Part shown: positions 15,801-38,304 of the stretch, in pieces | Layout: each line of letters begins with the position of its first letter | Position numbering within the stretch: the stretch's first letter is position 1 | From: Candidatus Omnitrophota bacterium | Lineage (GTDB): Bacteria; Omnitrophota; Gorgyraeia; Gygaellales; JAHJCI01 | Length of the DNA stretch: 38,304 nt | Direction of reading: 5' to 3' | Assembly (NCBI GenBank): GCA_016783355.1 | Contig: JADHWR010000003.1 | Location: 1 to 38,304 of the forward strand | The notes under the pieces: model-generated | Database searches by the model: none | What the model was told of the DNA's origin: nothing | The model's input: only the letters and a program-made list of their open reading frames with translations | Made by a program: the position numbers and the translations under genes

Positions 15801-18800
15801 CCAAACATTTAAAACGCCTGATTGTTGTAGATAGAAACGCCTGCGTTAATGATTTAGATGCCTTTATGGAGGATGTAACAAGGGCCAATAGTTCTGATAA
15901 TTTAGCTATTATTATTCCGGGAAGAGGAACTACCAATTTATTCACTCCTGTAGGGGGATGTTCACAGTTAATCGAAGAAGGACATAGGTCTTTTCTAAGA
16001 GGAGCAATGTTCTTAGGCGGAACCGCCGGCGAATCAGTAGGAACCGGCTGGGGTAATAATATAATAGTTACCTATAAAGACGTTATGCGGGCTTACGCTA
16101 ATCCGCAGGCTTCCTTAAGGCCGCTTACTTCCCGCTATGACGGTGGTGGACTTTTTGCTTCCATCTTCGGCTTTGAGTCCAACTTTGGCATCCAAGGCTT
16201 TCCACATTCTGCAGGCGTAGGTATCTCTGAAGACATCTGGGCAGTTGAACAGCAGGCATATGTTTTAGTAACTGCTAAAGAATACTTTTCTAAATCATAT
16301 CCTGCGGCTATGCCTGTAAACACCGGATTTGACAAAGCGCCAACACAAGGAGAGCTCGCGACTATTATAGCCGCCTTTGGCGGAAGAGAAGCCTTGACAA
16401 GAAAGAAAATAACCATAGACCAAAATAACACCGTAATCAGCCCGGCTCTAACAACAGCGGCTGAGGTAAGAGGCGGCGTACTTTATATCAATCCTAATAC
16501 TCTCCGCGGCCCGCCGGAAGAGGAAGAGTCCATTTTTCCGCTGGAACAGAGAAAAGCCATTTTTGAAGGTTACTTATTGTATCGTTTATCAGGAAACAAC
16601 GAAACCCAGACAAAGAGATCGGCCCTTCAGTATCTGATTGAAAAAGGTTTACTTGAAAGCCATATTAACTTCCTAGAAAACAACAGCATTGGCTTACAAG
16701 CAGATGGAAGCTGGTTCAATACTTTACTAAGTGTAAGTAGTTTTCTTTCTTACGTTGCTTCTATAGCTACTACAGATGAAAATGAGAGAAATGCTTCTTT
16801 GGAAGAAGACCAGAGCATCTTAGAGGCGTTTGCATTCGGTGATAGGCCTACATTAGAAGAGAATGGAATTGAGGAGATTAGAATTAGACCATTCTCTAGC
16901 CTCTCTGTCTTTGTAAGAAATAATGTGCTTTATGTCAATCCGAATATCTTAAGAGCTCCGTCGGCGCAACGAAAAGCCATTTTTGAAGGCTATTTGTTAT
17001 ACCGTTTATCAGGAAATAATGAAACTCAAACCAAGAAATTAGCCCTCCAGTATCTGATTGAAAAAGGTTTACTAGAAAGCCACATTGACTTTTTAGAAAA
17101 TAACAATATTGGCTTAAGACCAGATGGAAGCTGGCTGCAAACTCTTAAGGCAGCTGATGAGTATCTGAACAGAAATAATGCAAATAGTGATAATAATATC
17201 AACAACCAACCGCCACAAAATCCTATCCAGCTTGGTGACCAACAGCTGCAAAATTCTTCCCGAATCCGCAGATGGCTAAGCGGATTATTTAATAGACACA
17301 ATCTAATTCTATTACCTATCCTCGTCTTCTCTAACCTGTTTTTGAGCGGGTGTTCTGATGTTATCTCCTCTAGTAATTCTTCAATTTCTGACCATGTAGG
17401 AATAATAATTGTGGTGGTAGTAGTTCTAGTAACATTGCTTAACTTAAAGGTGGAAAACCGTCTTTCTTTATGGGAAAAATTTGCTCCGATAAATTGGTAT
17501 ATTTGGAAACTGAAGAGCTTAAATGCCGATGTTCGGGTACTCGCTGCCGAAACTTTAGGCAATAGAGGAAATAAGAAAGCAGTAGAACCTTTGATTAAGA
17601 AGCTAAGCGATTATAGTCCGTGTGTTCGCAGAGCCGTAGCAGAGGCTTTAGGTAAAATTGGTGACAAACGAGCAGTTGAGCGATTGCTTAAGGAATTGGG
17701 GAATTCAAACTTGGCTGTTCGCGAAGCTACAGCCGAGGCTTTAAAAAAGTTAGGCGCTAGTAAAGAACAACTCGTAGAAGGCCATCTTAAGGCTTTAACG
17801 AGTTCAAACTGGATAGTCAGAAGAGACGTTGTCGAGGCTTTACATGATATTGGCTCTACTCAAGCAGTTCCTTCTCTTGTAAAAGTATTGAGAGACAAAA
17901 ATTCTTATGTCCGCCAGACCGTAGCTCAAGCTTTAGATGCGCTTAATTGGCAGCCTATTAATCAGCAAGAAAAAATTTACTATCTTATTGCTAAAAAAAT
18001 GTGGGATAGTTTAGTTGAAATCAGTAAATCAGCAGTTCCCTTTCTTGTAGAAGCATTGAAAGACTCCCATATTTCTTTATCCGCAGTCCAGACCTTAGGT
18101 AGAATAGGTGACGAGAGAGCAGTTGAGCCTTTGATTGAGAGATTAAGTGATTCAAGTGACTATTTTTACGGGGATGTAGCAAAAGCATTTGACTATTTTT
18201 GCGGGGATGTAGCAAAAGCATTGGGTAAGATCGGACACAAAAAAGCGGTTAAGTTTTTGGAAGAAAAATTAAGAGCAATGGATACAGATCAAGGGACTAG
18301 TTTCCATTCATCGGAACAGTTGTATTTCTATAAGGCAGCGGAAATTGCCATCATAAGAATTGGATTACCTGTCATTAGACCGCTTATTGATAAACTAGAC
18401 GAAAAAGGTATACCGACATATATAATGGCAAAGGAAGTTATACCGGCTATAAGAGAGAAGCTTGAGGGGCGCTTTGGAGTGGATTCTGCTGAGGGCAAGG
18501 AATGGTTCACAGAGACAGTGGAATTTGGAGTTAGGCTTGCAGAAGACAACATTCCTCCCTGTGATACGCTTGAACTTGGCATAACTTATTTGATTGATAA
18601 TTCAGATGATTTAGATAGCTTCAAAACTCACTTATCTACGCTGGAAAAATTTTCTAGATTGTGGCACGAAAAGTTTAGAAGAATAAGATGGAAATCGGAA
18701 AGGTCCTATCACGGCGCTTATAGATATTATATTAAAAATATTGTTTTAACTTTGGCTATTCTCCCTTTTCAAGAAAAGATGATTGTAGATATTTTAGATA

Positions 18801-21800
18801 GTATCGTAATCAAAGTAGAAGAAAGAACAAGTTATAGAGAAGAGGTAGTAGCCACTTATGATGACGTAATGTGTGTTGGGGGAGGCGCTAGTGGCCCGAC
18901 TTATGAGACCGTTACCGAAATCACTGAATATGATTATTTGGATTATGATGAGGCAGAGGCTTTAGTAAGAGAGCTATCAAAAGATTCTTCAAGCCCCAAC
19001 ACCCCCTACGAGCTCGGCACGCCTCTAAATCGTATTTATAAAGCTCGCATATCGAATTCAAGCAGTCCTGTATTAGCTATTAAAAGCATACAAAGAATAG
19101 TTAACTTCCTTGCCCAAAGAGATGTAGAAAGGTTAGGCAGGGATATTTTAAGGAGGAAATGTGGCATAGAACAAGCAGATTTATTATTAATTTTAGGAAA
19201 CAGCAGAATAGAAGTTGCTGAGGAAGGAGTCAAAGTTTATAGGCGGGGGCTGGCTAAGAAGATTTTAATTGCTGGAGGCATAGGCAGAGAGAGTGAATTG
19301 TTGTGGAATAATATTAAGAAGTCTAATTATAAAATAGATAATTTGGAACAGAAATCAGAAGCAGAAATATTTAGAGAAATTTTAATAATAAATGGAGTTA
19401 AAGAAAAAGATATATTGCCGCTTGATACTGAATCTACTAACTCAGAACAAAATATTCGCAATGCTATAAGGATTTTAGAAGAAAATGATTTCTATTCTGA
19501 AAGCATTATTCTCATCCAGCATCCTGCTATACAAAGAAGAGCCGCAGCTACTTTCCAAAAAATAATAAACGAATCTGAATACAAAAAATGGCAGAAAGTT
19601 AAATTAATTACTTTTGCTCCTTATATACCAGATTTAGCCACGGCAGATGAAGAAGAGCGCTTATACTACATTAATATGGCTTTAGGCGAGACAGATAGAT
19701 TGATAAAATATGGCCCTAAGGGCGAAGGATTTATTGTTGATGTTTCAATACCTGATTATGTTATCGATGCCTACATACGGTTGGTTCTTAAAACTGAAAA
19801 TATTGAAGTTTTGGATAAAGAAATAGATACTGTTATGAAAGTTATGCGAAGACTGCTATCGCATCCTGAAGCAAGGGCAGAGAAGATATGCAAAGATTAC
19901 GGGATCTCAAAAGAGGATTTATTAAGTGTATATAAAATTATAAAGGCATCTGAAAAACTAAGGAGTACTTTAGTCTATAAGAATAAGATGCAAGGGGTCG
20001 CCAATGAGTTGCTATATTTATTTAATGATAAAAATTTCCTCAGTAGTCATTTTAGAGGTGAGGTTGTTTATCCTTTAATAGTGGAATTTCATCCGGGAGA
20101 GTGGTGTCCTCACCAATGCGTATTTTGTTATAGCCGACATAACAGAGAACGTCCTTTTGAATACTACGATAGAAAACTTGGCAGAAGACCTTTAACTCCC
20201 CAGAAGGCCCGGGAATTAGTGGAGGGATTTGCTAAAGGCGGAACAAAAGAGATATGGGTTTCAGGAGGTTTAGAGCCACTTGTTGCAAAAGATACTGTGT
20301 TAGCTATACTTGAAGCTGCACACAGAAATGGTCTAAAGACAAGATTGTATACAAATGGTGAGATATTTCATGAAGAAGTGCGAAGGGTAGCGGTCAATTG
20401 TTCCTGGGTGAGGTTTAGTATATGTGGTGTTACAAAAGAGATGTTTGAGAAAATACATAGGCCAATATCATATAAATATAATTTTGAAAGAGTTGTTGAT
20501 GATGTTAAGAATTTTGTAAGGTTTAAGAAAGAGCAGGGTTCTAATGTTGAAATCGGTATGTGCTATCTAATTATTCCAGAGCCGGCTAATTATAAGGAAC
20601 TGGTTGAGGCAGTTGAATTTGCTTATAAAATAGGATTTGATTTCTTTAGCGTGAGAACAGATATGGGAAGTGTGGTCGGGAAATTTAATGACCGAGAGAT
20701 TACTGAGATTTCAGGACAGATAAGGATCATAATTGAAAATGGCAGGCGAGGCAAATATGGGAATATGAGACTCGATTTACGTGGGATTCAGGAAGAGGAA
20801 TTGAAAGAGAAAGAGATTGTGCCAGATATGGAAAGAGCAAAATCTTGTTATGCTAGGTTATTAAAGATGATTGTAAACCCATTTGGGATAGGTTTCATCT
20901 GTGACTATATTGAGCATCCAAGGAATGCCAGGCCAGAGTTTGAAGTAGGAGATTTTTTTAACGAGGGTATAGAGAGAGTGCTTAAGGCCAGCAAAGATAT
21001 ACAGCACTATGTAGAAGTATGTAAAAATTGTAAAATTGACTGCCTTATTCATGAACAGGTAACCAATACTCTAATTGAAAAATTAGAAAGCGATAACAGA
21101 TTTGGTATCTCATTAGATGAACAGCCATTTATCGCGAGTAGTCCCGTTATTTCTCTGGATAAATTCTTGAGCAAATGTCAAGGTGAGCAGGTGGCACTTG
21201 TAACCGGGGCAACAGGATTTATAGGCTCACATCTTATTAATAATCTATTAGCAAGTGACAAGAAGATAGTTGCAGTTGTGCGTTCTAAGGGTAAGGAAGC
21301 TTTTAGGAACCTGGAACATAACATTAGGAATGAGAATTTATATATTGCTAAGGTTGGAGATATTTTGGATGCAGATAGTTTAGCATCTTTAGAGAAGTTA
21401 GTAAAGCAGGTATTCATTGTTTATCACTTGGCAGCAAGGACAAGTACAAGAGTCTCTACCTTTGAAGATGGCGTAGAGACTATCGCTACCAATGGGCTAA
21501 CGACCGCTATTATCTCAGCACTTTGCAAGAAGTATAATAAGAAATTAGTTTATATCTCATCCGCACATATCTATCTGAAATTCGAACACAAGGAGCGTGC
21601 ATTTTCTGAAAAGATGCCTTTGCCGATTTCCGAAGAAACAACTAGATTGCTGAATAGAACTTCTAATATGTTCATAGATTATGTGGAGAAATATATTTTT
21701 GCTCAGGATATTCGTGAGCCAAGAGAATTTGTGACTAACTACTTTAAACAGTTTGGAAACACACTTAAAGATTTAGAAGGCATTTTTCCTGAAGGTATAT

Positions 21801-24800
21801 ATCCGCTCTCAAAGATTCTTGGAGAAGAATTTGTTAGAGAAATGCCAGAGGGCAAAGGAGTAATTTTAAGATTTAACAATGTCTTTGGTGTCAGACAAAG
21901 AGAAACCGATGTTGTAGCGGTTATTACTAATAGGCTCTTAGAAGGAAAACCCGTTAAGGCCTCTACAGATACAAGGAATTTTATTTATATAAATGATGTA
22001 GTAAAGGCTATCAGAGCTGCAGGAGAAAAGGATTTTGAGCAAAATGAAATATTCATCATAGCTTCAGATGAAGGTCCAATTGAAATGAAAGAACTCATTA
22101 CTAAGATACAAAACAATTTCTCTGAATATAAAAGTAGAGATTTTCCTGTGGAACCCGCCCCCCTGATCCTTAGAGCTCCAGTATTTGATACTACAAAGGC
22201 TAAGAGAGAACTCGGTCTTACTGTGACACCTTTTGAGATTGCATTAGAGAGAACCATTCAATACTTCAGAGATATCTATCGCGATATACTTATACAAAAG
22301 ATTAAGAGCTTAGTTGTTCAAAAACAAAAAGAGCATTCACAAGAAATAGAGGAATTAATCTATCAGCTGCACAGCCGGATTCTGAAGAAAGAACTTGAGG
22401 TATTCAGGCAGGCTTGGGAAAGTGAGGAGGCAGATATTGAGGATCTCTGGAAGGTTCTTCAAGGGACGACAGTGTTGCCATTGTTGAAGGAAGTTCCTGC
22501 CTGGGGGCCAATGACTTGGTATGAGCATATCCAGAGCTTGGTAAGGACAGAATACACTTTAGATAATTGGAGGAGAAAGAGCGGAAAATTAGAAGGTAGA
22601 GATTTTGATGAGGTATATGAGTATTTGAAGGAAAGGGCTGAGCGAGGCGAGGGGTTAAGTAGAGATGAAGTCATCAAGCTACTGGCACTTTATAAAGAGA
22701 TACCATTAGAGGACCTTAAGGCTTTACGTTTAACAATCATCTTCCATGAGTTATGTCAATTATTGCTTCAAGGTAGAGATGCTATAGCTACGAGCAGATT
22801 AACGACACCTATTTTGGATGCTTTTGTAAAGGAAGGTATCTTAGGAGATGAAGATAGAGGAATAGTTCTTGTCCTCATCTCCCAACATGAGGAGTTTAAC
22901 ACTCTACAATTTGGAGAGTCCATACCGGCAAAGCTATTTCCGTATTTAGAAAGTAAACATATTGATAAAAATAAATTTTTCAAATTGGCCTCTATTTTAT
23001 ATCTAATTGATAACGCTGGAGTGAGAGAAGGTTTACTATCCGACATTCGTCTAAGAAATACTGTCTTTCTGGCGAATTCAGAGAATGTTAAAAGACTTGT
23101 CACCGATTGGGCAAGAGTAAGACTATTCTTGGGATTCTTTGGTAGAGGAAATAGACCGATTGATTTTTCTCAAATTGCCGATTTCCACAAGTTCACTGCT
23201 TTTTATGAGGATAGTTTCCTGGAAAAATTGCCAGAAATAAAGCCAGAAGATTTGGCTAAATTAAAGACAGAACTAAAAGAGATAGAAAAAGATAAGAAAG
23301 AAAAGGAGTTATTCTTTAGATTCTTGGCCAAAGAAATGAGTTTCGTGGGTTGGGCTATCTTCTTCTTCAGGAATTTAAAAAAGCTCTCTGCCAAAAATTT
23401 AATAAGGTACCTATATCTAAATGCTAAGGTAGTCCAATTAGTCCAGATGGAAATTGGACAAAGAGTTGAGATAACCAAATTTACCTTTACACCTAAAATG
23501 GACATGCTTAGACAAGAGAGCGAGAAAATAAACGAAAAGTTAAATAATCTTCCAGTTGAAAGTATAAGAGAAACTTTCCGCTTGGGAGAAGTTACTCTCG
23601 AAAATATAAAAGACAAATACGGCTTCGCCTTTGAGTTTATCGAAAAAGATAAAACCTTAATTCTTAATATCAAACCCCAAGCACCGAATTCGAGCAGTCC
23701 TGTATTAGTTCTCGATCATATTGTCTCTACTCCTGCTGAACTTCAAGGTTTTGCTTCTGTTGATTTGGGTAAGGTAATTATCAGAGGAAAAGATAAATAT
23801 GAATTGGAGCAGCCTCAGAAATTGGCCCAGCTACAAGGCATTTACCAAGATAGACTAAAGCAGATTATCGGGTTCGTCTCTCATTATATCAACGGACCTC
23901 CGTTGGAAGTCAATGTAGTCATTGAGCCTGTTCAGATTAGCAAACCTTCTATTTGGTATGAATCCTCTTCGCCTCTCTTCAGCCCTATCGCTACCTACGC
24001 CAATGAGCACACCTGGCTTAAGGCAACCAAGAAGATTCTCGCTGCTCTGGCAAAAGAATATGGTGAAGGCATCTTTAGTGAATTAGACCTCATTAATGAG
24101 CACGCTCAGCTTGAGTATCTTGGAAGTTTACAAGGAACTCCTGGTTATGATGACATTATCCGCAAAGAGGCAACTCAAGAAGCAAAGCGCGCCTACCGAG
24201 TATCCTGCTCAATCTTGGTACCCACCATTAAAGCAGCATTGGAACAGGATAAGCAAGCATCATCACCTATTTTTAACCTTGCTCGTTCTAAGTCTAGTCT
24301 ACCCTTAACTGAAGAACAACTCACCCAAGAAATCACCCAGAAACAATCCCAGATACGGGAATTGACAAAGGAGGAGTACCAGAGGGTATTACAAGTTGCT
24401 GAAGAGGTAAAACAATTCCTAACGCAAACCAACAGAACCACCTGGATACCCAAATTAGAAGAGCTCCTAGCAGACCAAGGAAAATTAAGAGCTGGGCCAT
24501 TTAAGAGCTTCTTTGCTGCTATCTATCAAGGTATCCTTTATATAGATGAATCTACAATAGAGCAACCCCTCCACTTGGAGCTTGCCCTCTTATATGAAAC
24601 TGCCGCAAAAGCCCTCAACACTCACCAAGAAAATCTTACTCTTGAGGAAGAGTACGTATTAGATACCGTCAAATCCGAAGGAAGATACTCTTTACGCAAT
24701 TTACCGCATACCTTCGAATCTTTTATAAAAGAAAAATCTAAAAAACACAGAAAATACTATTTAGCAAGACTGAAACGATTATTTAATAGATTACCCCACT

Positions 24801-27800
24801 CTGCAAAGGCTGTCGGAAAAATAATTGAGGCGCTCAATCTATTTGAAGTGGTAAAGTCTAAAAATCTCCATGCAGCCAAACTATCCATCTTAGAAGAATT
24901 CAAATATCTTCCAGAGTATAGACCAATCGCAGAAAAAGCTATATTAGATGGTCAGGTAGCAGTAGAAGGCTTCTATGCAGGGGCAGCTACAAGAATGGGT
25001 AAAGGCCCCCTATATCCTCTAGATCCCTGGGAAGTGGTTGAAAATGAGATTGAAGCAGGGAAAAATTACTCTATTCCTTCATATGCCTTAAGGGGAGTTG
25101 CCTTTGGCCCCAGACAGCTTATCCAACTAAGGATTGCCTTAGAGGAACTTGCCGCTCAGGGGAATAAGGATATACAGGGGGTGTTATTTAACTTCACTAT
25201 CATCCTGCACATCAACTCCCAGATTGAACAGATTGTCAAAGAAGACCTTATTAAACACAACTTCTATGGCTTTAATTCTGCTAATGTCATTATCGTAGTC
25301 CAGCCAATGCTGCCAGGTTGGTTCATAGACAAAGAAGGCAGAGTAAGACTAGATACAAGAAGTAAGACCTATCCCTACAACCATGGCTGGGCGAGGATGC
25401 AGCTTGGTTGGAAGAACCAAGGATATACCTTACACAGAGATGGCAAAATCAGCAGAATAAAAGAATCGCTCATCGATCGTCTTATATCGAAAGGCGTAGA
25501 GTATATGTGTCTGAACAGGATCAATGACTTAGACCGTCTCTCACTTCAAGGTGCCATTGACATTGATATGTTAGCCTTAGGCATATACCTGATAACACAG
25601 GAAGGCTTCAATCTCATTGTTGAGCTTGTTGGCAACCCCACAGGACAAAAAGGCGGCTTAGGCCTAAGGATACATAACAGGAACCAAATGCTTCTTGTAG
25701 AGGGCTTAAATGCTAATTTTCAACAGTTGCAAGATAGATTTACCTACCTGACAGAAAAAGCCAAAAAACAAGGCCTCCCAGGCCTACCCTATAATGCTAT
25801 GAGACAGATAGAGGCCATAAGAGAGACTCAAATGCCTATGCAGCAAGGCCTTCCTCTAAGTATAAGGTTAAGAGACGATAAAAGAATCTATGTAGAAGTC
25901 CCTGTGGGAGATGCCACACAGGTAAAAGGAGTAAAACCAAGAGCTGTAGTGAGGCTTAAGGATAGATTTACTCCTACTCAAACCCAGGGTGAACTCATCT
26001 ATGACTTCAAAGCCCCAAAAGATGTACCCCAGGCAGTAAAGTTTCTAGCTGAGCAGGATAGACAGCCGAGGTTTAAGGAGTTAGTTAGGGATTTAGGGTT
26101 TATAACGGTTAGCTCCAGTTCACCTTTGGAGAAAAGTGCATCAAACTTAGGAGTACAGATAGAAAGCCTTATTGAGCAAATTCATCCTCAAGATGTATCT
26201 AAACAAAAAGAACTTTTACAAGGTTTGGTTCCAGAGGAACTTAGCGGACAGTATATCTCTGGTGGCTATAGGGAAGTAGATATTAAGAGTAACGTCTTTG
26301 CATATAATACTCCTAGCATAGGAACTTTAGAATTCGCTTGGGGTAAAGTAAAAGATACATGGACAGAGACACATGAACGATGTGAATCTCAATATATAGA
26401 GGCTTTGCAGACTTTGTTTAAACGGGAAGAGTTAAGGGATAGGCTTTCTATAGAAGAGATATATTCGATAGCATTGGCTTTGAGAGAATCTTTAGTTGGT
26501 AAAGAGGTTCATCCTAAAGAGATACCTTATGGAAATCTAAAAGAGTTAAAAAATATTATAGATGAATTAACAGATAGAAAGAATTGGAGAGACTTGGTAA
26601 AATTCTTGGCTTATGCTGATTTCTCTAAATTAAAAGGCAATTACCAACAGATTAAGAATAAGAATTGGTTAGATATAATTTCTCTTCTTGAAAATGATTC
26701 AAAAGGTCTCATAGAGGGAATTCTACATAGTTCACATTATATACACATCACAGGAAATATTTACGGCATAGCTGCAGATTTAATGTTTATCCAGAAATTA
26801 TTGAAGATTGGGACCGAAAAGATAACATTAGTAGCTAAAACAAGAGGACGAGAGGATGAAGCCCTTATCAGTGATGTGGAAGCACTTCTTAGACAGGAAG
26901 AATTTGCTAGTCTTAAGCAAAAAAGAGGTGAGCGTTTTGGAATAGTAGATAGTGGTTCTTTAAGTGTAGGCACAAATCTATTCCAGGTAAATGGTAGATT
27001 TAGAGAATTGGTCCAAGAAGTTAAAGATCAAGAAGCCGTTTTGATAGCTAAGGGCGAGATGAACAATCTTACACTTAATCTATTCGATGTTGAGCATTAT
27101 CGTATTGCTTTAGCTGAAGAAAGGATTACTCGTCAGTTTACTGGTTTGTTCTGGGATGAAAATGAGCATGAGATGCCTTGGTCATTTATTGTCCGGATTC
27201 CAGCAGGAATTATGCCAGCGGCAGAATTTGATGGGCAAAGACCGGTGAGAGAGAATCTCCAACAATTCTTTAAAGCTAGAAATAAAGCTAGAAAATATTA
27301 TGAGTCACGAAATAAACATCCCGATTACAAGTCTATTAGAGCAGAAATGTTGAGGCGCGGGGGATTGACTTTTGCTGAATGTGTAAGACCAGAAACTCTA
27401 TTAGTTAGAGAAGAAGATTTAGGTGATACAAGTCATCTTACTGGCAGCCAAGTTTATCTGAAAGTGCAGGAGAAAAATCAGGAAATTGTAGCTAATATAG
27501 TCAGAGAAAAGAGTCAGGGCGGTGAATGCTATACGAGTATATATGAATTGGAGCCAAAGGAGCATCATAAAGATGCAAAACTTGAAGTTTCAGAAGCTAA
27601 GGTTCTAAGCGAGGCGAAGAGAAAACTTGATGAGAGAAAATCAGAGAAAAAATTGGTCTTAATTAATGGTATAGTATTGGATTTAGAAGAGGCTGGTTTA
27701 GGGCTTGAAATGGGAATGGCTCGAGAAGTTCCACCAGGACGATATTCAGCTCTAAAAGAAAGAGAATTAATTTTAGCTCAAACAATAGCCGATACATATT

Positions 27801-30800
27801 CTGAGACAGTCTTTACTTTTAACTTATTGTACTTCTTTACCAAGACTTTATTTGGAGAATATAATGAAGTCAGAAAAGATAGACCAGAAGAGCAATTGTC
27901 CGAATCAATGAAGAATATCTATATAGATATTTATAAAAGACCGGGTAAAGAAGAAAAAATTCCTCTTTATAATAAAACTTACATTGCCGAGGATGCATCC
28001 GGAGAGATTATTACAGGTAGAAGACGCCTGCGTGGTGGAAAGATGAACTTCTCCAATGGAAACTTATTAGAATGGACAGAAGACTACCTTGTCGATAGCC
28101 CAGAAAAGATGCCTAATAAAGATATTTTAGAGAGGGCAGAGGTTCTCGTGTATACACCAATGTGTTCTGAGTCTCAGACCGCAAAAGTTTTAGATAGAAA
28201 TGTTCGCCATAAAGGAAAATTTGACGAACCCAAGGATAAATACAAAGAATATAATTTAGCAATTGGCAAAGATAGATACAATTTAATAATTGTTAATAAT
28301 CAGATTACTACGATTAAACGTGGGGATGTGCTTATGCCTTGCGTTGGGATAGTGATTTCTCTAAACAAAGATAAATTTGAGGAGATATTTGGGCAGATAA
28401 CCGAGAAAGACAGGGAATCTGAGGACAGAGTAGTGTTTAAATTAAAAGAAGATATATCTTACAGGTTTGAACTCCAGCCGCCTAAAGAATACACCAAAGA
28501 ATATTGGGAGAGTTTAAGTTGGTTAATGGGCGGAGGGACACTTTTGGTGTATCAAGGAAGGAATTTAGTTGCTACCAGAGCCCAACAGCGCGATGCCTTT
28601 ACGCTTGAAGGCTGGTTTAAGAAATTATCCACTCAGACTCAAGAGACGCAGCTTCAGGATTGGTTAAGGGGGCCACGAATGATTATTGGTATGACTAAAG
28701 ATGGCAGATTCTTTATGTTTACCTTTGATGGCAGATCGGATAGTGTTGGTGCAACCTTTGCTGAGGCAATTGCCATAATCTATGAGAAAGTTGGTGAGAA
28801 TAATATCGAATGGGCGATAAACTTAGATGGAGGTTCATCCGTAGGTTTAAGTGTAATTGATGAAGGTAAAGCGTACACAGTAAATCTGTCTGCTATTGGT
28901 CCGGATAACTGGATTGGTCAGATTAGACCCATCAATACATTTGGTATGCTAGTTAGAAAAGAAGGACAAGAAGGCAGTTCTTCTAGTCCAGTCCGTTCCA
29001 AGTCGGCAAAGCCTTTAACTCAACAGCAAGTTGCCGAAGACATCGGAAAGAAGGAACCCCAGATTAGAGATTTAACCGAAGCTGAATATGTAAGTGTACG
29101 TAAAGCTGCTAAAGAGGTAAAACAGTTCTTGCAACAGACGGACAGAACCACCTGGATACCCAAATTAGAAGAGCTCTTGGCAGAGGAAGGAAAATTAAGA
29201 GCTGGGCCATTTAAGAGCTTCTTTGCTGCTATCTATCAAGGTATCCTTTATCTCTATTATAGTATAGATGAAACTACCAAAACTGAAGCCCTCCACGATA
29301 ATGACCCCCTCCAGCTAGGGCTTACCCTCTTACATGAAACTGTTGCCTTGGCCTTTAGCTCTCACCAGCAAAACCTTACCATTGAAGAAGAGTATGTTTT
29401 TACCATGATCCACTCTGAGGGTATCTATGAATTAAGAAGGCTGGCTGAGAGTATAAGAAAGCTCTTAATTGAGAGAAAATCAAAGGCCCATAAGATAACC
29501 TATCTCGATATCCTAAAACAAGTATTTAAACCCACTCCATCAGCCCCGGCCAAGAAGGCACTTGAGGATATTCTCTCCCGCACTGTTGAGATCTTCAATC
29601 TCTTTGAGAAAGTTAAAGCTAAGCGTCTTAATGCTGCCAAACTTAGTGTTCTTGAAGAAGTGCAAGAGACCAACACCACAATATACGAGAGGTATTTCTT
29701 AGAGACGATTTATTCTGTTGTCGAAGGCCTGATTGCTGCTGAGTGCTTCTTTGCAGGAGCGGCAACCCGTATGAAGAAAGGCCCCCTCTATGGCCTTGAT
29801 CCTTGGGAGGTAGTCATTGAGGTAGTTAATGGTATTGCAGAAGTGAGTGAAGAGATTAGAATTAGGATCGTCCTTTCTCTCGCCAGGTATGATAGAGAGT
29901 TGCGCGATAAACTGAGAGTAAAATCAGGGCCATCAGGAGTTGCTCTTTACGGTAATCCGGGGACACAATACTTAATTCCGCAAGATACTGCCGCTTCACC
30001 GGTGGGTAGAAAAAATGACTCTGACCCCATTTCCCCCTATTTTAATATAATACTAGGTGAAGTTCACAGGTTGGATCCAAGGGCTTACGGTCCACAAGGA
30101 AAAGGATTCATCGTTTATGTGAAAATTCCACAGGAGATTAGGGAAGTTTATAAAGAGCTAGAGAATGTTTCTAATTTCCACACACCAAATTCCAGCAGTC
30201 CTATTTCTATCTTCAGCCGCGTTGCTTCAAGCCCTGCAGAAGTGGTTGTTATTAGGCCTAAAGAATTAACTCAGTTAGCAGGTTTGTATCAAGCTAAACT
30301 CAGGCAAGTCTCCGGCTTTGATGCTCACGGTGTCAACGCATCGGCGGTTTCCAGCTCTCCAATCAAGATAACCCCTTCTCTTGAGAGTTTCACCCAAAAA
30401 CTATCCCTTGGCATATTCGACCTCATTCATGCCAAGAGCCTACTTTGTAAGTTCGCCGCCCTGCTTAAAAAAACAGACGAAGAAAAGGTTAAAGGACAAC
30501 TAATTATCGGAAAGACATTCCTGCCTTCAGCCCTGCTTACCGAAGAGGAACGTAATACTCAATTAGGCCAGAAAGACTATACTGAAATTGTCTCTGATAC
30601 CGCTAATTTAAAAGCGGCAAAGCAGATAGTTATAACCTTTAATCCCATGGATGGAGGCTTAGGCACTAGCGTTGAAAGAAAAACTTATCTTAAGAATGTG
30701 GCCGGAATAAATAAGCTGGGAGCAAAGGCAACTGATTTATTCTTTAGGGTAAAAGCCGAAGGAAAAGACTCTTTGGGTAACCGGATAGAATACGATGAGC

Positions 30801-33800
30801 TCATCTCCATCGCTGAAATCAAGCTTCTGCGGGTGATAAAAGATGCTTCTCAATACGGAGCTGCTTACTTCCAACCTCTGGTTAATAAAGATTCAGCACC
30901 GTCTTATATAAAGCTGTTAAATAGTATCTACTTTGACGATAGAATCGGCGATACCATAATCTATAAAAAAACTTATCTACAGGTTATGCAGGAGAAAGGC
31001 ATAAAACTTTATAAAAACGACGAATTGCTCTATCAGGCGGACTTACCTATTATTGATATCGGGAAAACCACTAAAAATCAATTATTTTTAACCGACAAAT
31101 TCACCGCGCCCGGGGGCCATGGGCAGTGGGGAGTAAGGCTTCTCTATGAAGCGCTTAACTTTGTCCAAACCGATAATAAAATTTACATCAGGGCCTTCTA
31201 TAACGGAGACGGTATAGCTAACTTCCCTGATAATGCAATTTTAGGCTGGATGGCCAGAAACAGAGTGCCAATCGTAATGATATCTACTACCAAGACAGGA
31301 ATAGATAAAAAAGGCGGACAAATCGGTATCCAGATATTGGAGGATAACTCAACCAGGGTCCAGATGCTCGAACTTGCCCAGGCAAAGAAGCCCGGAAAAG
31401 TTCACGAAGACCTATTTGCCGCAATCGGCCTCCAAGGAAAAGAGAGCGTTGAAGGAACTAAAGACGGAAAGCCTCACACTTACACCAACGAACCAGGCGC
31501 CCAGGCTTTCAACACCAATATCGCCCTTATCAACTATACCGTGCTGGCACCTATGTTACAGGAACTCTCTGGACTGAAAAATATCGAGTATGAGGAAGGG
31601 ACTCCCTTGTCCGGAAAAGAACTCATCGAGCGAATCATTACCCCTGATTTAATCGAAAACGAAAAAGAAAAGTCTGATGGAAAGAAATACACCCAGATTG
31701 AAGGCGCAATCGGCTCAGCCCTGCTTAATTTAAATGCCTTCTTTGCAACTTCAAAAGACCCAAGAGTAAAAGCGATATTACCTAGGGGAGAAAAGCTCTT
31801 AAGAGTAGTAAACGTCAGCGCTGCAAAAAGAACTAAATTCTTTACTCCGGTCAAGAACGCGTTTGATTATGTTTTGCAGGCTTACTCAGACTTTTACTGT
31901 CTTGATAATAACAAATGGACCCTTTGTAATGCAGAAGAAGGAAGAATACCCCCGGCAATTAAACTTGTTGCGTATAAGCGGGACGAACATAACGCTATTA
32001 TTCCCGATGAAGAGGGCAACCTCCAGGATGATAAGTTTTACGGGGACGTCCAAAACTGCATAGACTGCTTCAAGGGAATATCCACCAAGGAACTTAAATC
32101 CCTTACTATAAAGGGAAGAGTCGCTTTAAAAGGAGTAATCCTTAAAGGAGAGGTAATAATCACCAGCGAATATACCTATCCTGAAGTATTTGACCTCAAC
32201 AGCACAGAAGCAAAAAAAGCATTGGGGCAGGAAAGAACCCAACCGTTGGTTTTGGAGGATGTGGAGATCGTAATCAATGAAGAAGGAATAAGATGTAATA
32301 GCGTATTAACTAGGCTTGTTCGCAGCGCAAGCTCGCCGGTTAGGGAATCCTTTGGCACCAAAACTATCGGTATAGTCAATGAAAATTTGAGAAGAGCATT
32401 GAATAGTGGCGATTTACTGGTTGAGGTAACACAGGAGGCCTTTTTGCCTGAGATAGAGGATTCAATATCTCAACAGTCCCTGGCCAGCGGAGGTTTGGGT
32501 TTCCTTTCGGGCGAAACGTGTGGCGGATACGGACAGCTTGGCGTTGATACTGTTGGGTTGATGCCTTTCTATGCTCATTACAAGGATATAGATGGTAATT
32601 GGCATCGGGTTAATTGGAATCAGGCAAAAGAAGTTAAACCTTTGCTTGTGCAAAAAGGCAATAACCTTCAGGAACAATTGAAGATCGATATAGAGTTCAA
32701 TCATCAGAATTATCCGGTTTTATTCTATATTGTAAATAGAGACGGGACACCGGTATTGGGTATCTATCAACCCGATATATTCAATGTCCTGTATCCTGAT
32801 GAGCCTCAGAGGGTTATCCAGTATGCATTCATAGGCAAAGTTTTTGTAGAGTTATTCAATACTCTTGGCGTTGCCCCGAGTATTTTAAGGCTGAATGAGC
32901 CCCAGCTATTATTTGTGGAGGTGGCGCGGCAAAATGACATTGCTTATTTTAGTAAAATAGGCGGCCAGAGCATCCATAAAGAAACAAAATTGGTTCTGAC
33001 CACGCACACCCCTGAGGCAGCTGCCTTACCGGTGTATGATAATATAGAATGGTTAAAACTTCATATTGGCTCCGAGATGGTTCCTGATTGGATTATCTGT
33101 GACGGCAGAGTAGATATGGCAAGAAGACTAACTGAGCAGGTTGAGGTTATCAACGCTGTATCAGCAGAGCACAAAAAGGTAACCAGATTAGTTATTCTGC
33201 CGAAATACGCTTATAAGACCACGGGCATTCTTAATGGTTCTGACCCCAAAATATGGAAGAGCGGAAGGCTAAAGCATATTGAAGAATTGCACAAATCCCG
33301 GCAAACAGAAATAACCGGAGAAGAGCTCTTTTCTGCCGGGGAGTCTATAAAACCGGAGTTAAACGAATATCTTAAAAAAAGATTAGGCTTTGGCTTCACA
33401 GATTTAAATAGGCCTTTGGCCGCCCTCATCCGGCGCCTGGTGGCTTATAAAGAGCAAAGGATACTTTTTGGGATTATTCACTGGATTTGCGGTGACAGAG
33501 GTAAGCAATATGATACGCCATGGGGGAGAAGGCCCGGTTTAGAGATGAATCTTTTAGTAGGGGGTGTGGCAAGAGATGGATTAGGAAAAGAATGGGTAAA
33601 AGAGTTTAAGAGGATTATGTATGAACCGGAGCTGAAAGGCAAGTTTATCTTTATTGACGGCTCAGGGACAGAAATTATGAAGTTAGCCACTCAGGCCTGC
33701 GATGCCTGGATTAGTATGCCGCGCTCAACCAGAGAAGCCTGTGGAACTTCTGATCAGAGGGCGGCATTTAACGGCCACCCTAACATTGCTACAGCTACAG

Positions 33801-36800
33801 GCGGGCCGTTGAAATATATATCCCACAAGATTAATGGATGGCTTATGGATGTCTTTAAAGGGAGCAGGTATTCATTTGAAGATGTAGTTAGATTAATGCA
33901 ATTACCGGATTCTTACCCTGAGAAAGAAGAAATTGTTGAGTTCTACAGAAAGAGGGCTCAGGAATTGCTTGGTGAATGTCTGCAGGAGGCAAGCCGGCTC
34001 TATTATGCCTATAGAGAACAGAGCGATACCAAATGGCTGGATATGATGAAGGCCTCTTATGAGCTCTCGCATCAAAAGGTATCTATTGTGCGTATGGTAA
34101 AAGATTACCGGCGGCTGTTTGAATTCGCAAGGCGCAATGGTGGCATATCCAAAGTGCATAACTTAAAAGTTAACCCTGTTAGCAGAGATTCTTATGAAGT
34201 CAGTGTGGATATAGAGACCAGTGATTTAAAGATTGATGAGTTGTTGATTCAGTTACAGTACGGAAAATATGACGGCACTTTCTGGCAAACTCTAAATATG
34301 GATTTATTACCTCTTGAATTTGGCCGTTTATATAGGGCTAAAACAACACTGCAGCTGCCGCCGGGAGACTATGGTATTACTGCAAGGGCAAATGCCGCCG
34401 GGATGCAGGATATTGACCCTGAATTGGAAATTTACCACTGGGCTAATAGTTTTGGCCAGGATGTAAGAATTCATGTTTCTTCTTCCCCGATTTTCGATCC
34501 GGTTAAGGTAAAAGATACACAGAAGATTTTAAGTAAGAGATACAGCGAGCTTTATCTTTACGAAAGAGAAGTTATGGAAAATATTGCATTGTTAGCTGAG
34601 GAAATAAAGGAACAAAACAAGCGGTTGATCTTTATCAATGCGACAGCTTGCGGCAGGGGTGTTGCCGAGATTCTCCATAATCTTGTTCCTTTCTATAGGG
34701 AATTCGGCATTGAGGCCGATTGGTATGTATTAAAGACAGTTGCTGCCTACGATTATTATGACGACCAGCATAATAAGATGAACCGTTTTTACGATATTAC
34801 TAAAAAAGTCCATAATCTTATTCAGGGCAAGAGGGATACAGTAAGTGACGAAGAAAGAGAAATTTTCAATAAGACAACAGCGCATAATGCTAAGATTATA
34901 CGCTGTGTTTTAAGTGATCCTCGCAATATATTCTTTATTGAGGATGCTCAACCTTCGGGCTTGATTCCTTTTATACGCAGAATGAATCCGCAAGCGAGGA
35001 TAGTTTTCCGGCTGCATATAGATGCATGCGGACTTATTAATTTTTCCTCTACAAGAGGAGAACTTCAGTTTCTTCTAGATTACTGGAAGCAGGCAGATGC
35101 AATAATCAATCATATCTCTGAATTTGCTCCTTTAGTAGAATACTTGGATATACCGAGATTAAGTATGCCTCCGGCAATTGATCTGTTCAATGATAAGAAT
35201 AGACTTATATCTGATGAAGAAACAGGAGAATTTTTAGATAAAATAGTTGACATTAATGGTAAGCCTCTTAATTTGGATAAACCTTTTATACTGTGTGTAT
35301 CCCGTTTTGATCCCTGGAAAGGGCAATTAGTTTTAGTGGATGCGTTTGAATTGATACAGGATAAAGTAGATGCCGATTTATTGTTGGTGGGTAATTTTGC
35401 CGATGATGATCCCGAAGGAAGTGTTTATTATGAGAAGATTGTTGAAAAAACGAAACATAATCCGAGAATACATATAGGAAGTTACCTGCAGGATAACGAT
35501 AGAATTATTAATTTTTTACAGAGGAAAGCAGTTGTTGCTGTTCAAGTTTCACTGCGGGAAGGCTTTGGTTTAGTAGTGGCAGAAGCTTTAACCAAAGGTA
35601 CGGTAAGCATTGTTTCTTCTGCCGGAGGGCTTAAAGAACAGGTGATCGATGGTTTAAATGGATTTGTTGTAAGCCCTGAAGATACAAATGAACTTGCCGT
35701 AAAAATCATGGAAGTTATTAATTCTTCCGAAGAGAAATATCGGCAAATGGGAAGGTATGCAAGGTTAATCGTAAGAGAGAAGTTTGCCTTAACGAGCCTT
35801 GCCATCCATAGGCTGGCGTTGAGCTTGGTGGATTTAGAGCATTTAGATAATAGAGAAGTTGTAGCGGTTGGGAATGTTACTCAAAAAGTTGTTGCTGGAA
35901 TCAGAAAGCAGCCTTTACTTAATCTTGTATTTGAAAGAGGCCAGGCAATAGAGCAGCCGGACTTATTTAATCGGCTGACTGCTTATATCTGCAGTCGCAC
36001 AGATTTATCTCGTGAAGAAATAGGAAGAGCAATGGGCATAATCAATGTATATACGGTTAAACAGGGTAGTTTAACATGGGGGATTAAAGTAGTTCCTACT
36101 GTATATGGCAAAGGTTACGATTCTTCTGCGGCTAAAATCTATATTGCTGAAGAAGATTTCATGAGAGCCTTAAGTGATGCAGAATATAGAGAAAATCTGT
36201 TTGATATGATAGTAAACTATATGGTTCAAATAATAGAAGAAAGAAGCGAAAGGGAATTCTGTTATGGTGTAGTTGAGGAGAAAATATTTTCGGCATTGCG
36301 CTTGTTGAAAAACCAACGGCAAATTATCGGTTTCAGTGAAATTCCATATTCCAGCAGCCCGATGAATCAGTCTATCCGTTCCAATTCACCTGTGCGTAAT
36401 AAGCTACCTACTCGAAAAATAGAAATTTCTCCTTTTCTGGTCTCTAATGCTGAATTCAAGATTATTGAATTGGAAGAGCAAATTGCTGCTTCAGATATAA
36501 CTATGCAAGATAACGAAGATTTTAGAGCATGTTTTGAGCAACATATAAATAATTTAGAAGAAGAAATAAAGCAGTTTCAAGAGACAATATATCCTTTTAA
36601 AGTTGATCCAGTAGTTGCTTATTCAACCGATTATCTTAGAAATAGGATTAAACAGCTATATCGCGATATCCTTCGAACAAAAAAACGGATAGATAATCTC
36701 AGATTCCATAATGAAAAAAAATGGCTGTTGTCAAAGTGGCAGAGGCATCTGGAGATGCTGGAAGAAGAATTTTCTAAAGCACAGTTTAATCTTCTCAGTT

Positions 36801-38304
36801 TACAAAAAACCCATTCCAACCCTCCGGCAAAGTTCAGGACAAGCCCTTCGGTTTGGTTACGCTCGCTCAGGACAAGCAGCCCGGTGGATTATACAAGGAT
36901 TAAGGATAAAACCCGCCAGGTGGCGAAGCAAGGATTAAGGATAAAGGGCGGCTGCTCCAGTTCACCGGTAGGCCGTAATGTCAAGATTCAAGATTTGATC
37001 CCAGTACCATTGAGAATGGATACCATTGAAGATATGAAATTAGAAGGAAAGAAAGTGTTGGTGCGGGTTGATTTTAATCTGCCTTTGAAAGAGGGTAAGG
37101 TCTCTGATGATACCCGGATTAAAGAGGTCTTGCCGACGATAAGGTATCTACTTGACAAGAACTGCAAAATTATTCTGATATCGCATTTAGGCCGGCCTCA
37201 GAAGGAATTGAAGAAGAGGCCGGAGGCAGAAGTCAGGGGGGCTTTAACTCTTGCGCCAGTAGCTGCGGTCTTGGAGGAGCTATTAGGCAGAAAGGTAATT
37301 ATGGCCCCCGATTGTATTGGTGCTGAGGTGGAACGAATTGTTGAAGATATGAAGCAGGGCGATGTGCTTTTATTAGAAAATTTAAGGTTTCATCCCGAAG
37401 AGGAGACGAACGATGAGGAATTTGCTAAACACTTATCTTCATTAGCAGATATCTTTATTCAGGATGCCTTTGGGGTAGTTCACCGGGCCCATGCCTCAAC
37501 GGTGGCGATTACAAAGTTTCTGCCCAGCGCCGCAGGGCTTTTATTAAAGAAGGAAATAGATTATTTAACCAAGGTATTGAACCCCCGCAGGCCATTTGCT
37601 TCAATCCTCGGCGGAAAGAAGGTTTCTGATAAGTTAAAGACGCTTGAGAATCTGTTAGATAAGATGGTTAAAGGCGATGTCTTGATTATCGGCGGGGCTA
37701 TGGCTTATACATTTATGAAGGCAGAAGGTAGAGAAACAGGAAGGTCCTTAGTAGAGGAGGAAATGGTAGGACTGGCAGAAGAAATATTAAATCAGACAGG
37801 TAAAAAGGGGATAAAAGTAGCCTTACCCATTGACCATAAGTCGGTTAATGACATCAAAAAGCCTAAAGGAGAAAGAAGAAGCTTTTTGGGGCCGTATATC
37901 CCTGACGGATTTATGGGTGTAGATATCGGAATTCTAACTAACAAAAATATTGAGTTAAGTTTAAGCGGGGTAAAAACTGTTTTTTGGAATGGCGCTATGG
38001 GTGTATTTGAAGAATATGAATCCTCCTGGGGCACTAGAAGTTTAGTTGACCACTTGGCCCGGAGGGTAGAATTTTATGAAGGTACGGTTGTTTGCGGCGG
38101 AGGCGATACCCTGGCCAGCCTGGCTAAATTTGGCTATAAGGGCAGGATGTCCCATGAGTCAACCGGCGGAGGAGCGGCTTTGGAGTTCTTGGAGGGCAAG
38201 ATATTGCCCGGGATTGAAGCGTTGGAGATTGCTTCAGGACGAGCAAGTTCCTGCGCCAGAGAGCCCGGGAAGAATTCCAGCAGCCCGATGGCTAAATTGC
38301 CCCG
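2..38304 (+). CDS. Internal fragment of one giant protein (at least 12,767 aa), open at both window edges; likely Omnitrophota-type giant multidomain protein
   Basis: Frame 2 on + read by eye from 'gcc gtt ata gct acg ctg' (2) to 'aat tcc agc agc ccg atg gct aaa ttg ccc' (38302) with no stop seen. Domain homology remains in the same frame from end to end (LysM ~3.6 kb, HEAT ~17.5 kb, radical SAM ~20.1 kb, PGK ~37-38.2 kb). No ORF in the supplied track lies in + frame 2, as expected if that frame has no stop. Confidence 0.95.
885..1370 (+). other. Domain: charged, probably coiled-coil helical region
   Basis: Dense E/K/R/Q/L composition: QENRARAERITDVLTQLEIEEHREVIKRKRVEIGHQLKKGTINAELAEVKLAYLDAQIALLQIKEKIAQAQ. 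Confidence 0.6.
3578..3757 (+). other. Domain: LysM-like peptidoglycan/chitin-binding motif
   Basis: THIVCRGDSLWKIAENYLKDPFKYKKIAGDNNIDLINKIRKDGSPYVYAFIKPGQKILI matches the LysM pattern (GDSLW.IA..Y......Y..I...N.......I.PGQ.L.I). Confidence 0.75.
5975..7170 (+). other. Domain: possible (alpha/alpha)n-barrel, glycoside-hydrolase-like region
   Basis: Helix-rich sequence with aromatic/acidic motifs (GLFLSHDWESRIFRASMYTWDAMLNTHRSLLAGDMERARKLLTFYEDFI ... FGWYTPLGFSSIASALQID). No catalytic signature recognised with certainty. Confidence 0.3.
12385..14640 (+). other. Domain: large polytopic membrane region (more than ten hydrophobic segments)
   Basis: Successive hydrophobic stretches: MLPHMLLAGIATIAAFNYLGGG, LNIHILAIGAGLIALGIIF, RALGLIGLFIALFGLPYVSF, TGGILGTIASIFFYGVLLAGFIGLSAYL, FFLIAPFALGFIILLPLSAIFGF, AWILGVGLVVLNLVALMF, FISGMLITIGAVFVLYWL. 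Confidence 0.85.
16478..16726 (+). repeat. Tandem domain repeat, copy 1
   Basis: VLYINPNTLRGPPEEEESIFPLEQRKAIFEGYLLYRLSGNNETQTKRSALQYLIEKGLLESHINFLENNSIGLQADGSWFNTL, near-identical to the unit at 16925-17146. Confidence 0.92.
16925..17146 (+). repeat. Tandem domain repeat, copy 2
   Basis: VLYVNPNILRAPSAQRKAIFEGYLLYRLSGNNETQTKKLALQYLIEKGLLESHIDFLENNNIGLRPDGSWLQTL. Offset is 420 bp over the core and 447 bp at the start, where copy 1 carries 9 extra codons. Confidence 0.92.
17303..17356 (+). other. Internal lipoprotein-signal-like segment with lipobox (LSGC)
   Basis: RRWLSGLFNRHNLILLPILVFSNLFLSG|CSDVISSSNSS: basic n-region, hydrophobic core, L-S-G-C with Cys codon tgt at 17351-17353. Confidence 0.5.
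17522..18280 (+). other. Domain: HEAT repeats (PBS-lyase HEAT-like type)
   Basis: Iterated ~30-aa units: NADVRVLAAETLGNRGNKKAVEPLIKKLSDYSPCVRRAVAEALGKIGDKRAVERLLKELGNSNLAVREATAEALKKLG ... Confidence 0.92.
18158..18223 (+). repeat. 33-bp in-frame tandem duplication (2 units)
   Basis: gactatttttacggggatgtagcaaaagcattt / gactatttttgcggggatgtagcaaaagcattg; 2 mismatches in 33 bp; encodes DYFYGDVAKAF-DYFCGDVAKAL. Confidence 0.97.
19055..19072 (+). other. SSSP linker motif (NSSSPV) at the start of the YdcF module
   Basis: aat tca agc agt cct gta; preceded by another SSSP at 18986-18997. Confidence 0.9.
19070..19774 (+). other. Domain: YdcF/SanA/ElyC-like (DUF218) module
   Basis: ADLLLILGNSRIEVAEEGVKVYRRGLAKKILIAGGIG ... 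AEIFREILIINGVKEKDILPLDTESTNSEQNIRNAIRILEE...SIILIQHPAIQRRAAATFQK. Confidence 0.8.
20075..21055 (+). other. Domain: radical SAM enzyme module
   Basis: CPHQCVFC (CxxxCxxC; Cys codons at 20105, 20117, 20126) followed by GGTKEIWVSGGLEPL, HRNGLKTRLYTNG and VRFSICGVTKEMFEKIHRP; late Cys cluster VEVCKNCKIDC. Confidence 0.9.
21185..22270 (+). other. Domain: NAD(P)-dependent epimerase/dehydratase (extended SDR)
   Basis: VALVTGATGFIGSHLINNLL (GxxGxxG), VYHLAARTS, LVYISSAHIY, YPLSK (YxxxK), VILRFNNVFGVRQ, RNFIYINDVVKAI. Confidence 0.9.
24257..26100 (+). other. Domain: UDPGP (UTP-sugar uridylyltransferase) family-like module A
   Basis: FYAGAATRMGKGPLYPLDPWEVV (nucleotide-loop-like), FNFTIILHINSQIEQIV, FNSANVIIVVQPMLPGW, YPYNHGWARM, LISKGVEYMCLNRINDLDR, NPTGQKGGLGLRIHNRNQMLLVEG, in the order expected for UDPGP folds. 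Confidence 0.6.
26290..27090 (+). other. Domain: DUF89/ARMT1-like (metal-dependent phosphatase family) module
   Basis: HITGNIYGIAADLMFIQKLLKIGTEKITLVAKTRGREDEALISDVEALL ... IVDSGSLSVGTNLFQVNGRFRELVQEVKDQEAVLIAKGEMNNLTLN. Confidence 0.55.
28250..28965 (+). other. Domain: phosphodiester glycosidase (NAGPA-type)
   Basis: GPRMIIGMTKDGRFFMFTFDGRSDSVGATFAEAIAIIYEKVGENNIEWAINLDGGSSVGLSV matches the family core (G.tkdG...~v~Gr....G.t..E.a.......~..a.nLDGGgSs). Confidence 0.78.
28976..29815 (+). repeat. Duplicate of the N-terminal part of UDPGP module A, truncated after 'LDPWEVV'
   Basis: Collinear with 24257-25039: SSSPVRSK...PLTQQQ...IRDLTEAEY...EEVKQFLQQTDRTTWIPKLEELLAEEGKLRAGPFKSFFAAIYQGILY ... 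FFAGAATRMKKGPLYGLDPWEVV. The UDPGP core then fails to continue. Confidence 0.88.
30012..30043. repeat. Possible REP-like scar ('aaatgactctgaccccatttccccctatttt') inside the ORF
   Basis: Reverse complement reads aaaatagggggaaatggggtcagagtcattt. From memory, 'GGGGTCAGA' motifs recur beside REP-associated transposase genes in many bacteria. Only one copy noticed in this window. Confidence 0.35.
30053..30151 (+). other. Isolated C-terminal remnant of a YdcF-like module
   Basis: LGEVHRLDPRAYGPQGKGFIVYVKIPQEIREVY parallels LGETDRL--IKYGPKGEGFIVDVSIPDYVIDAY at 19682-19774, without the rest of the YdcF domain upstream. Confidence 0.65.
30374..32320 (+). other. Domain: UDP-glucose pyrophosphorylase family (UDPGP) module B
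   Basis: [106 protein letters not shown]. Confidence 0.8.
32342..34465 (+). other. Domain: alpha-glucan phosphorylase-like (GT35-like) module with C-terminal beta domain
   Basis: LASGGLGFLSGE, KLVLTTHTPEAAA, DAWISMPRSTREACGTSDQRAAFNGHPNIATATGG, and C-terminal PPGDYGITARA...EIYHWANSFGQDVRIHV. Confidence 0.65.
34490..35830 (+). other. Domain: trehalose synthase TreT-like GT4 glycosyltransferase
   Basis: LIFINATACGRGVAEILHNLVPFYREFGIEADWYVLK, KKVHNLIQGKRD, VFRLHIDA, FILCVSRFDPWKGQLVLVDAFELI, LLLVGNFADDDPEGSVYYEKI, SLREGFGLVVAEALTKGTVSIVSSAGGLKEQVIDGLNGFVV (E-x7-E). Confidence 0.88.
36828..36948. repeat. REP-like intergenic-type repeat absorbed into the ORF
   Basis: 'ttcaggacaagcccttcggt...cgctcgctcaggacaagcagcccggt' plus a 17-bp direct repeat 'caaggattaaggataaa' (36894-36910, 36929-36945). 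Frame 3 translation of the segment gives RQSSGQALRFGYARSGQAA, a familiar artefact of such repeats. Confidence 0.7.
37019..38240 (+). other. pgk: Domain: phosphoglycerate kinase
   Basis: KLEGKKVLVRVDFNLPLK, ILISHLGRPQ, LLLENLRFHPEEE, FIQDAFGVVHRAHAST, SILGGKKVSDKLKTLENLL, IIGGAMAYTFMKA, VFWNGAMGVFE, VVCGGGDTLASL. Confidence 0.97.
38273..38290 (+). other. SSSP linker motif (NSSSPM) directly after the PGK module
   Basis: aat tcc agc agc ccg atg follows the PGK C-terminus (LPGIEALEIAS). Confidence 0.9.

Follow-up and report, generated by a model that had tools for sequence, protein, structure and literature searches.

The giant proteins of the Omnitrophota are among the largest predicted bacterial proteins. 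A known example is the 39,678-aa protein of Candidatus Velamenicoccus archaeovorus (PMC10066038, PMC12057145, PMC12419801). Published readings present such proteins as adhesins, coats, or predation weapons (PMC10066038, PMC12057145, PMC12419801), and whether they are intact has been called unclear (PMC12057145). As far as the available text of these papers goes, the described giants are one-ORF proteins that combine membrane segments, polysaccharide enzymes, receivers, methylases, LysM domains, and peptidases, and no repeated punctuation peptide is described there (PMC10066038, PMC12057145, PMC12419801). The original prediction for the locus studied here was that a recurrent S-S-S-P-[V/I/L/M] peptide lies between enzyme modules and that no motif of this kind has been described; in agreement with the latter, a literature search outside bioRxiv (and thus outside West-Roberts et al. 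2023) returned no paper on the motif.

The DNA analyzed here, a window of 38,304 bases, is the whole of one contig (C2) of a 78% complete Omnitrophota genome of 1.157 Mb in 81 contigs, and it shares with the giants outlined above its lineage, its one-ORF organization, and the same kinds of content. A single stop-free frame (2..38302, on the forward strand, as are all features below) fills the window, encodes 12,767 aa, is open at both contig edges, and represents a fragment of a larger giant gene. At 38.3 kb, this frame exceeds the 20 kb used as a threshold for giant ORFs, and it is 55% identical to a giant ORF of Ca. Velamenicoccus archaeovorus LiM, with additional Omnitrophota records also matching. 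The encoded stretch belongs to a giant protein of Omnitrophota type in which autonomous enzyme modules follow one another. The first half of the frame (2..18985) has predicted membrane segments by hydropathy (aa 0-500 and 4000-5000) and, by Pfam, a weak LysM match and HEAT repeats; a translation scan of its 6,308 aa returned an SSP count of zero. This part also includes a zincin-like HExxH motif (HESAH, 2246..2260) that, speculatively, may belong to a peptidase acting in cis.

All motif sites are confined to the enzyme-bearing second half of the ORF, at or after position 18986. The 18 sites listed in the original prediction were all recovered in frame, 17 of them as [SAT]SSP by motif scan and one, the variant SNSPV (36380..36394), by reading the translation. 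Relative to shuffled versions of the protein, SSSP was observed 12 times versus 0.09 expected, [SAT]SSP 17 times versus 0.3, and SSP[VILM] 15 times versus 0.45; the maxima over 300 shuffled proteins were 1 for SSSP and 3 for SSP[VILM]. SSSP is also the most enriched of all 4-mers in the ORF, with a score of 46.4 compared to a best score for any 4-mer of 15.9 in 200 shuffles. Moreover, the 6,459 aa of the enzyme-bearing half hold 15 copies of [SAT]SSP[VILM], versus two in the 334,854 aa of 935 other ORFs of the genome, other giants included (P=2e-24). Pooling of 152 sites from giants yielded a consensus of S>A>T, S, S, P, and V=I>L>A>M, with no conservation seen on either side beyond these five residues. 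The residue order is strict: the pooled giants contain 99 occurrences of SSSP versus 1 each of SSPS, SPSS, and PSSS, which rules out mere S/P-rich linker composition, and a generic interdomain linker of free residue order was rejected on these counts. Similarly, SSP[VIL] was found 149 times versus 4.3 expected, while the TSP, SAP, and AAP variants were at or below background and other one-step variants were at most 4-fold elevated.

Mapping of the motifs and of Pfam domains places the former at the joints of the latter. The enzyme-bearing half opens with SSSPN (18986..19000, as DSSSPN) and SSSPV (19058..19072), the second of which precedes a YdcF (DUF218) domain (19181..19630, E=5.8e-13) by 41 aa. 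A radical SAM domain (20093..20530, E=7.3e-15) comes next, followed by ASSPV (21134..21148) and, 20 aa later, an NAD-dependent epimerase/SDR (21194..21898, E=2.5e-32). Further sites lie at 23690..23704 (SSSPV) and 23963..23977 (SSSPL); the segment downstream of the latter has a homolog in a giant of another genome (G042:C69) that is likewise initiated by the motif. The ASSPI at 24257..24271 opens the first copy of a duplicated module, an SSSPL lies at 26114..26128, and an NAGPA phosphodiester glycosidase domain (28289..28873) is followed 35 aa downstream by a motif; the second copy of the duplicated module is opened by SSSPV at 28979..28993. Two closely spaced sites, SSSPI (30191..30205) and ASSPA (30224..30238), precede the UDPGP-type nucleotidyltransferase module (30365..32326; PF01704, E=1.1e-10, and alignments), which is bounded by SSSPI (30350..30364) and ASSPV (32327..32341). 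A module resembling GT5/GT1 glucan synthases or phosphorylases (32486..33853) is assigned from weak Pfam matches (E=7.7e-6 and 2.2e-4). Beyond it, SSSPI (34478..34492) lies 52 aa before a trehalose-synthase-like glycosyltransferase (TreT_GT1 and GT1, 34634..35764, E=4e-30 and 5.5e-30), and then come SSSPM (36350..36364), the SNSPV variant, TSSPV (36872..36886), and SSSPV (36956..36970). The last of these is located 23 aa before a complete phosphoglycerate kinase (PGK; 37025..38200, E=3.3e-137), and SSSPM (38276..38290) follows 25 aa past its end. Pfam thus backs the enzyme names originally proposed for YdcF, radical SAM, epimerase/SDR, NAGPA, UDPGP, GT5/GT1, TreT plus GT1, and PGK. The "UDPGP A" copies at 24257 and 28979, however, are not Pfam UDPGP domains; their proposed duplication is real, with both copies motif-initiated and 53% identical in alignment.

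The association of motifs with joints extends to the nine motif-bearing giants as a group. The Pfam domains of these giants include PGK, YdcF, radical SAM, epimerase, UDPGP, GT5, TreT, PEP-synthase C, ROK, HAD, NUDIX, methyltransferases, CheR, glutamate dehydrogenase, cytidylate and guanylate kinase, uroporphyrinogen decarboxylase, a DprA-like domain, and 1,3-beta-glucan synthase. None of 135 motifs fell within a Pfam domain versus 18.1 expected (P about 1e-9), with Pfam covering 4-37% of the motif-bearing stretches. Pfam queries of the window were split at motifs and those of the relatives arbitrarily, with the same outcome (0 of 119 motifs in domains). The median distance from domain to motif is 76 aa compared to 174 aa when motifs are placed at random outside domains, and motif pairs bracket individual domains, such as the PGK (-23/+25) and one receiver domain (-11/+10).

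Free-standing homologs offer a further view of these joints. Motifs bound the UDPGP module on either side in the window, in genome G036 (61-63% identity), and in V. archaeovorus LiM (55%), where the flanks read LSSPSLSSPV and VSSPAD, while the neighboring sequence differs; the position at the start of the module (30350) is marked in all three. At its C-terminal joint, the motif lines up with the point at which free-standing homologs naturally terminate: those of an Omnitrophota MAG (L173) and an Elusimicrobia MAG (L175) both end where the motif starts (RLFRSGRP-stop versus TRLVRSASSPV in the window). The N-terminal motif may, from alignment, correspond to the start of the free-standing L175 protein. 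The embedded PGK matches the free-standing PGK of its own genome from end to end. Module ends were compared with two homologs for UDPGP and with the genome's own copy for PGK, the remaining modules being delimited by Pfam. A second, near-identical free-standing PGK fragment is present in the MAG (G000:C74, L074 1-321), probably reflecting a mixture of strains. Domain avoidance, joints held in common with relatives, and the ends of free-standing homologs together bear out the claim that the motifs lie at module joints. Judged from these alignments, [S/A/T]-S-S-P-[V/I/L/M] appears to be a short linear motif in flexible linkers, at points where ancestral free-standing proteins would have begun or ended.

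Relatives of the window were identified by searching with the modules at 30350-36349, supplemented by contigs flagged by codon pattern. Homologs of these modules form part of long open frames elsewhere in the order, from which the sampled genomes mainly derive; the giant ORFs were analyzed as partial stretches. Beyond the window's own genome, at least seven members of the order have giant ORFs that carry the motif (strong SSSP enrichment in G036, G042, G011, G055, G008, G097, and G060), and an eighth (G039) shows it weakly. It was not found in the giants of G045, G033, G044, and G043, in contig C5 of G036, or in the long-ORF contigs C7, C41, C59, and C60 of the window's own genome. Homologous modules in G045, G033, and G036:C5 are free of the motif, indicating that embedding of a module does not require it, a point against the cleavage reading discussed below. 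The window, G042:C69, and G011:C4 each have a long stretch devoid of motifs, and the negative correlation between motifs and membrane segments in 500-aa bins was not significant (P=0.57). The three outcomes named in advance as fatal to the original prediction, a frequency explained by composition, a lack of boundary association, and a lack of conservation in relatives, were all examined and none was observed. Several other features of the relatives deserve mention. The frames of G033:C2 (70,450 aa) and G008:C2 (42,913 aa) are both longer than the 39,678-aa protein of Ca. V. archaeovorus. In G036 (L138, L149), an extended linker repeat continues past the motif (LGSLVN...SSRLS.TDR.LAL.E.AH.RLT.RAPP). 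In G039:C111 (aa 12364-14083, L135-L136), an 853-aa tandem duplication is 99.9% identical, with an SSPV linker opening each copy. A 1,3-beta-glucan synthase domain (PF02364, E=9e-80) adjoins the UDPGP modules in two giants (L161 of G097:C56 and L163 of G060:C28), which suggests a glucan-making machine.

Two other giants (G010:C33, L145-L146, and G003:C7, L147) form one family in which SSSP is absent and DNG is enriched, with 34 occurrences versus 3.0 expected in G010 and 22 versus 1.4 in G003, mostly as DNG[NDGS]. At 16 aligned sites between the two giants, which are 70% identical overall, D is retained 14 times, N 14 times, and G 13 times, while flanking residues are retained at about 40% of sites (mostly 30-50%); the triplet thus stands out as conserved within linkers that otherwise diverge. 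None of 56 DNG sites fell within Pfam domains versus 4.7 expected (P=0.007), and DNG sites enclose small domains, receivers among them (-4/+52, -16/+45, and -16/+43). The use of two unrelated peptides in a like position argues for a positional function and for specific recognition.

Together, the peptide common to the joints and the D-N-G of the sister family make these giants look like polyproteins that carry a protein-level code for enzyme ends, and the conserved peptide at boundaries that would be expected of a polyprotein is present (a 152-site consensus, strict order, and domain avoidance). The sequence evidence supports protein-level punctuation by a motif at the module boundaries. This part of the original prediction stands, but sequence does not settle the choice among the protease site, modification site, and recombination linker that it offered. 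Recognition of the pentapeptide would occur in cis or in trans, with a peptidase cutting at or just past it as the likeliest case; such cleavage would detach the soluble enzyme modules from what stays membrane-associated, making the giant a cellular polyprotein. Site-specific cleavage of a polyprotein at the motif would be the best explanation, one in which our confidence is evenly poised, and we infer cleavage of the linkers as the most economical reading. Many embedded modules are of cytosolic kinds (radical SAM, receivers, kinases, and PGK) and other parts of the giants are membrane-embedded. The modules have no translation start of their own, such that the embedded enzymes can come only from the giant chain. 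Their being sole copies was rejected for PGK and Gmk, for which other copies are present, and the embedded PGK of the window is an extra copy alongside the free-standing one. For DprA in G008 and CMK in G097, the embedded domain is the sole clear match in its genome, with G097 79% complete and the DprA-like domain of G008 diverged. Given that embedded PGK and Gmk are in most cases additional copies, essentiality does not call for their release. The weak constraint on residues after the motif counts against cleavage. The position immediately after the motif has a weak bias (few I, L, and P, more E) that hints at a cut near there, with significance lost under correction for many tests. A broader proposal is a polyprotein economy, in which tens of unrelated metabolic enzymes share one chain that would be cut at [SAT]SSP[VIL] or DNG[NDGS], with gene start and stop signals replaced by an evolutionarily switchable protein code; we place this proposal somewhat short of an even chance.

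Candidate processing peptidases were sought among Trypsin_2, S41, S8, and HExxH proteins, and no enzyme or domain common to all motif-bearing genomes or giants was found among them. HtrA, for which a P1 Val/Ile and P2 Pro would be suitable, was rejected as a common processor given its absence from G036, G011, G055, and G008, which are 92-96% complete; HtrA/Trypsin_2 was found in six of six tested genomes lacking SSSP. An S41 peptidase occurs in every genome that is at least 90% complete, motif-bearing or not, and S8 modules were seen within just a subset of the giant frames. HExxH zincin motifs number 31 versus about 4 expected in 25 giant frames, mostly in an abXHEbbHbc context, consistent with the metallopeptidases reported in such giant proteins (PMC12419801).

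Alternatives to cleavage need to be weighed. The pentapeptide could be an extended flexible spacer or hinge in one intact giant enzyme complex, and many enzymes per chain would be plausible for a complex that makes polysaccharide. The flanks are rich in P, S, and T and poor in aromatics, as in disordered linkers, and AlphaFold returned pLDDT values of 25-32 at the PGK-flanking motifs, a hint drawn from one low-confidence model of the PGK joint built on two sequences (mean pLDDT 53). However, generic selection on linkers leaves the strict order, the near-obligate aliphatic fifth residue, and the sharp five-residue edges unexplained, and we judge this alternative unlikely, if one that deserves real weight. 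It is also conceivable that the motif is recognized but not cut, its S-P being phosphorylated, glycosylated, or bound by a partner so as to sort or anchor modules. A sharp-edged short linear motif with a Ser-Pro core would suit such a role and some giants embed receiver domains, yet the sites are at joints and not on the modules, and the D-N-G of the sister family is devoid of a phosphorylatable residue; the proposal is improbable.

Less probable still is that the motif is the scar of recombinational module shuffling, or a spreading linker, with no role in the protein. The duplications in the window and in G039 are initiated by the motif, and the motif DNA of the giants has a synonymous bias toward TCC-AGC-AGC-CCG (TCC at 63% of first Ser codons and CCG at 58% of Pro codons). 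The original argument that varied serine codons point to recurrence at the protein level is upheld, although the synonymous bias is real as well: across relatives, the second and third Ser codons mix both codon families at about 50:50, families whose interconversion requires more than one base change, and this indicates that what recurs is the peptide. In addition, conservation of the flanking DNA is absent, and the pattern TCNAGYAGYCCNRTN occurs 5 times in the window frame but only twice elsewhere in its own genome. A purely DNA-level element is therefore disfavored. A mobile or palindromic DNA element in the ORFs was likewise rejected, as neither conserved DNA flanks nor copies in other frames or strands were seen. 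Finally, that the motif marks points of ribosome stop and restart within hidden genes is scarcely credible even though the joints coincide with natural gene ends, given that the frame has no stop codon, that the next Met is often more than 100 aa inside the module and deep in a domain, and that a Shine-Dalgarno sequence plus ATG accompanies 5 of 128 motifs (3.9%) versus 2.3% of random positions, at most weakly above background. Separately, a viral origin was rejected, with no relative of the UDPGP module among viral contigs.

Returning to cleavage of a polyprotein, punctuation at the joints of unrelated enzymes makes a concrete prediction, namely neo-termini at SSP sites, that could be examined in existing mass-spectrometry data for the LiM culture (PXD025008, cited in PMC12583861). 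Among described proteins, the LiM giant ORF resembles the window in this respect, with its UDPGP module flanked by SSP motifs. If the proposal is true, these giants would offer a case of a cellular polyprotein in bacteria, one whose cleavage code can evolve. Viral polyproteins and MARTX, an auto-processed multi-effector bacterial protein, place several functions on one chain. Unlike in those systems, the enzymes here look cytosolic and metabolic, the UDPGP module is without a viral relative, and no processing domain was found that all motif-bearing giants share; the likeness is in a multifunction chain with short specific joints and in the peptidase-like modules that some giants carry. The RuBisCO small subunit of Euglena is made as a cellular polyprotein with decapeptide linkers. 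There, as here, a brief conserved linker separates the modules at set positions, but the Euglena modules are copies of one protein, whereas those of the giants are dozens of unrelated enzymes, encoded by a bacterium, whose release by cleavage we infer.
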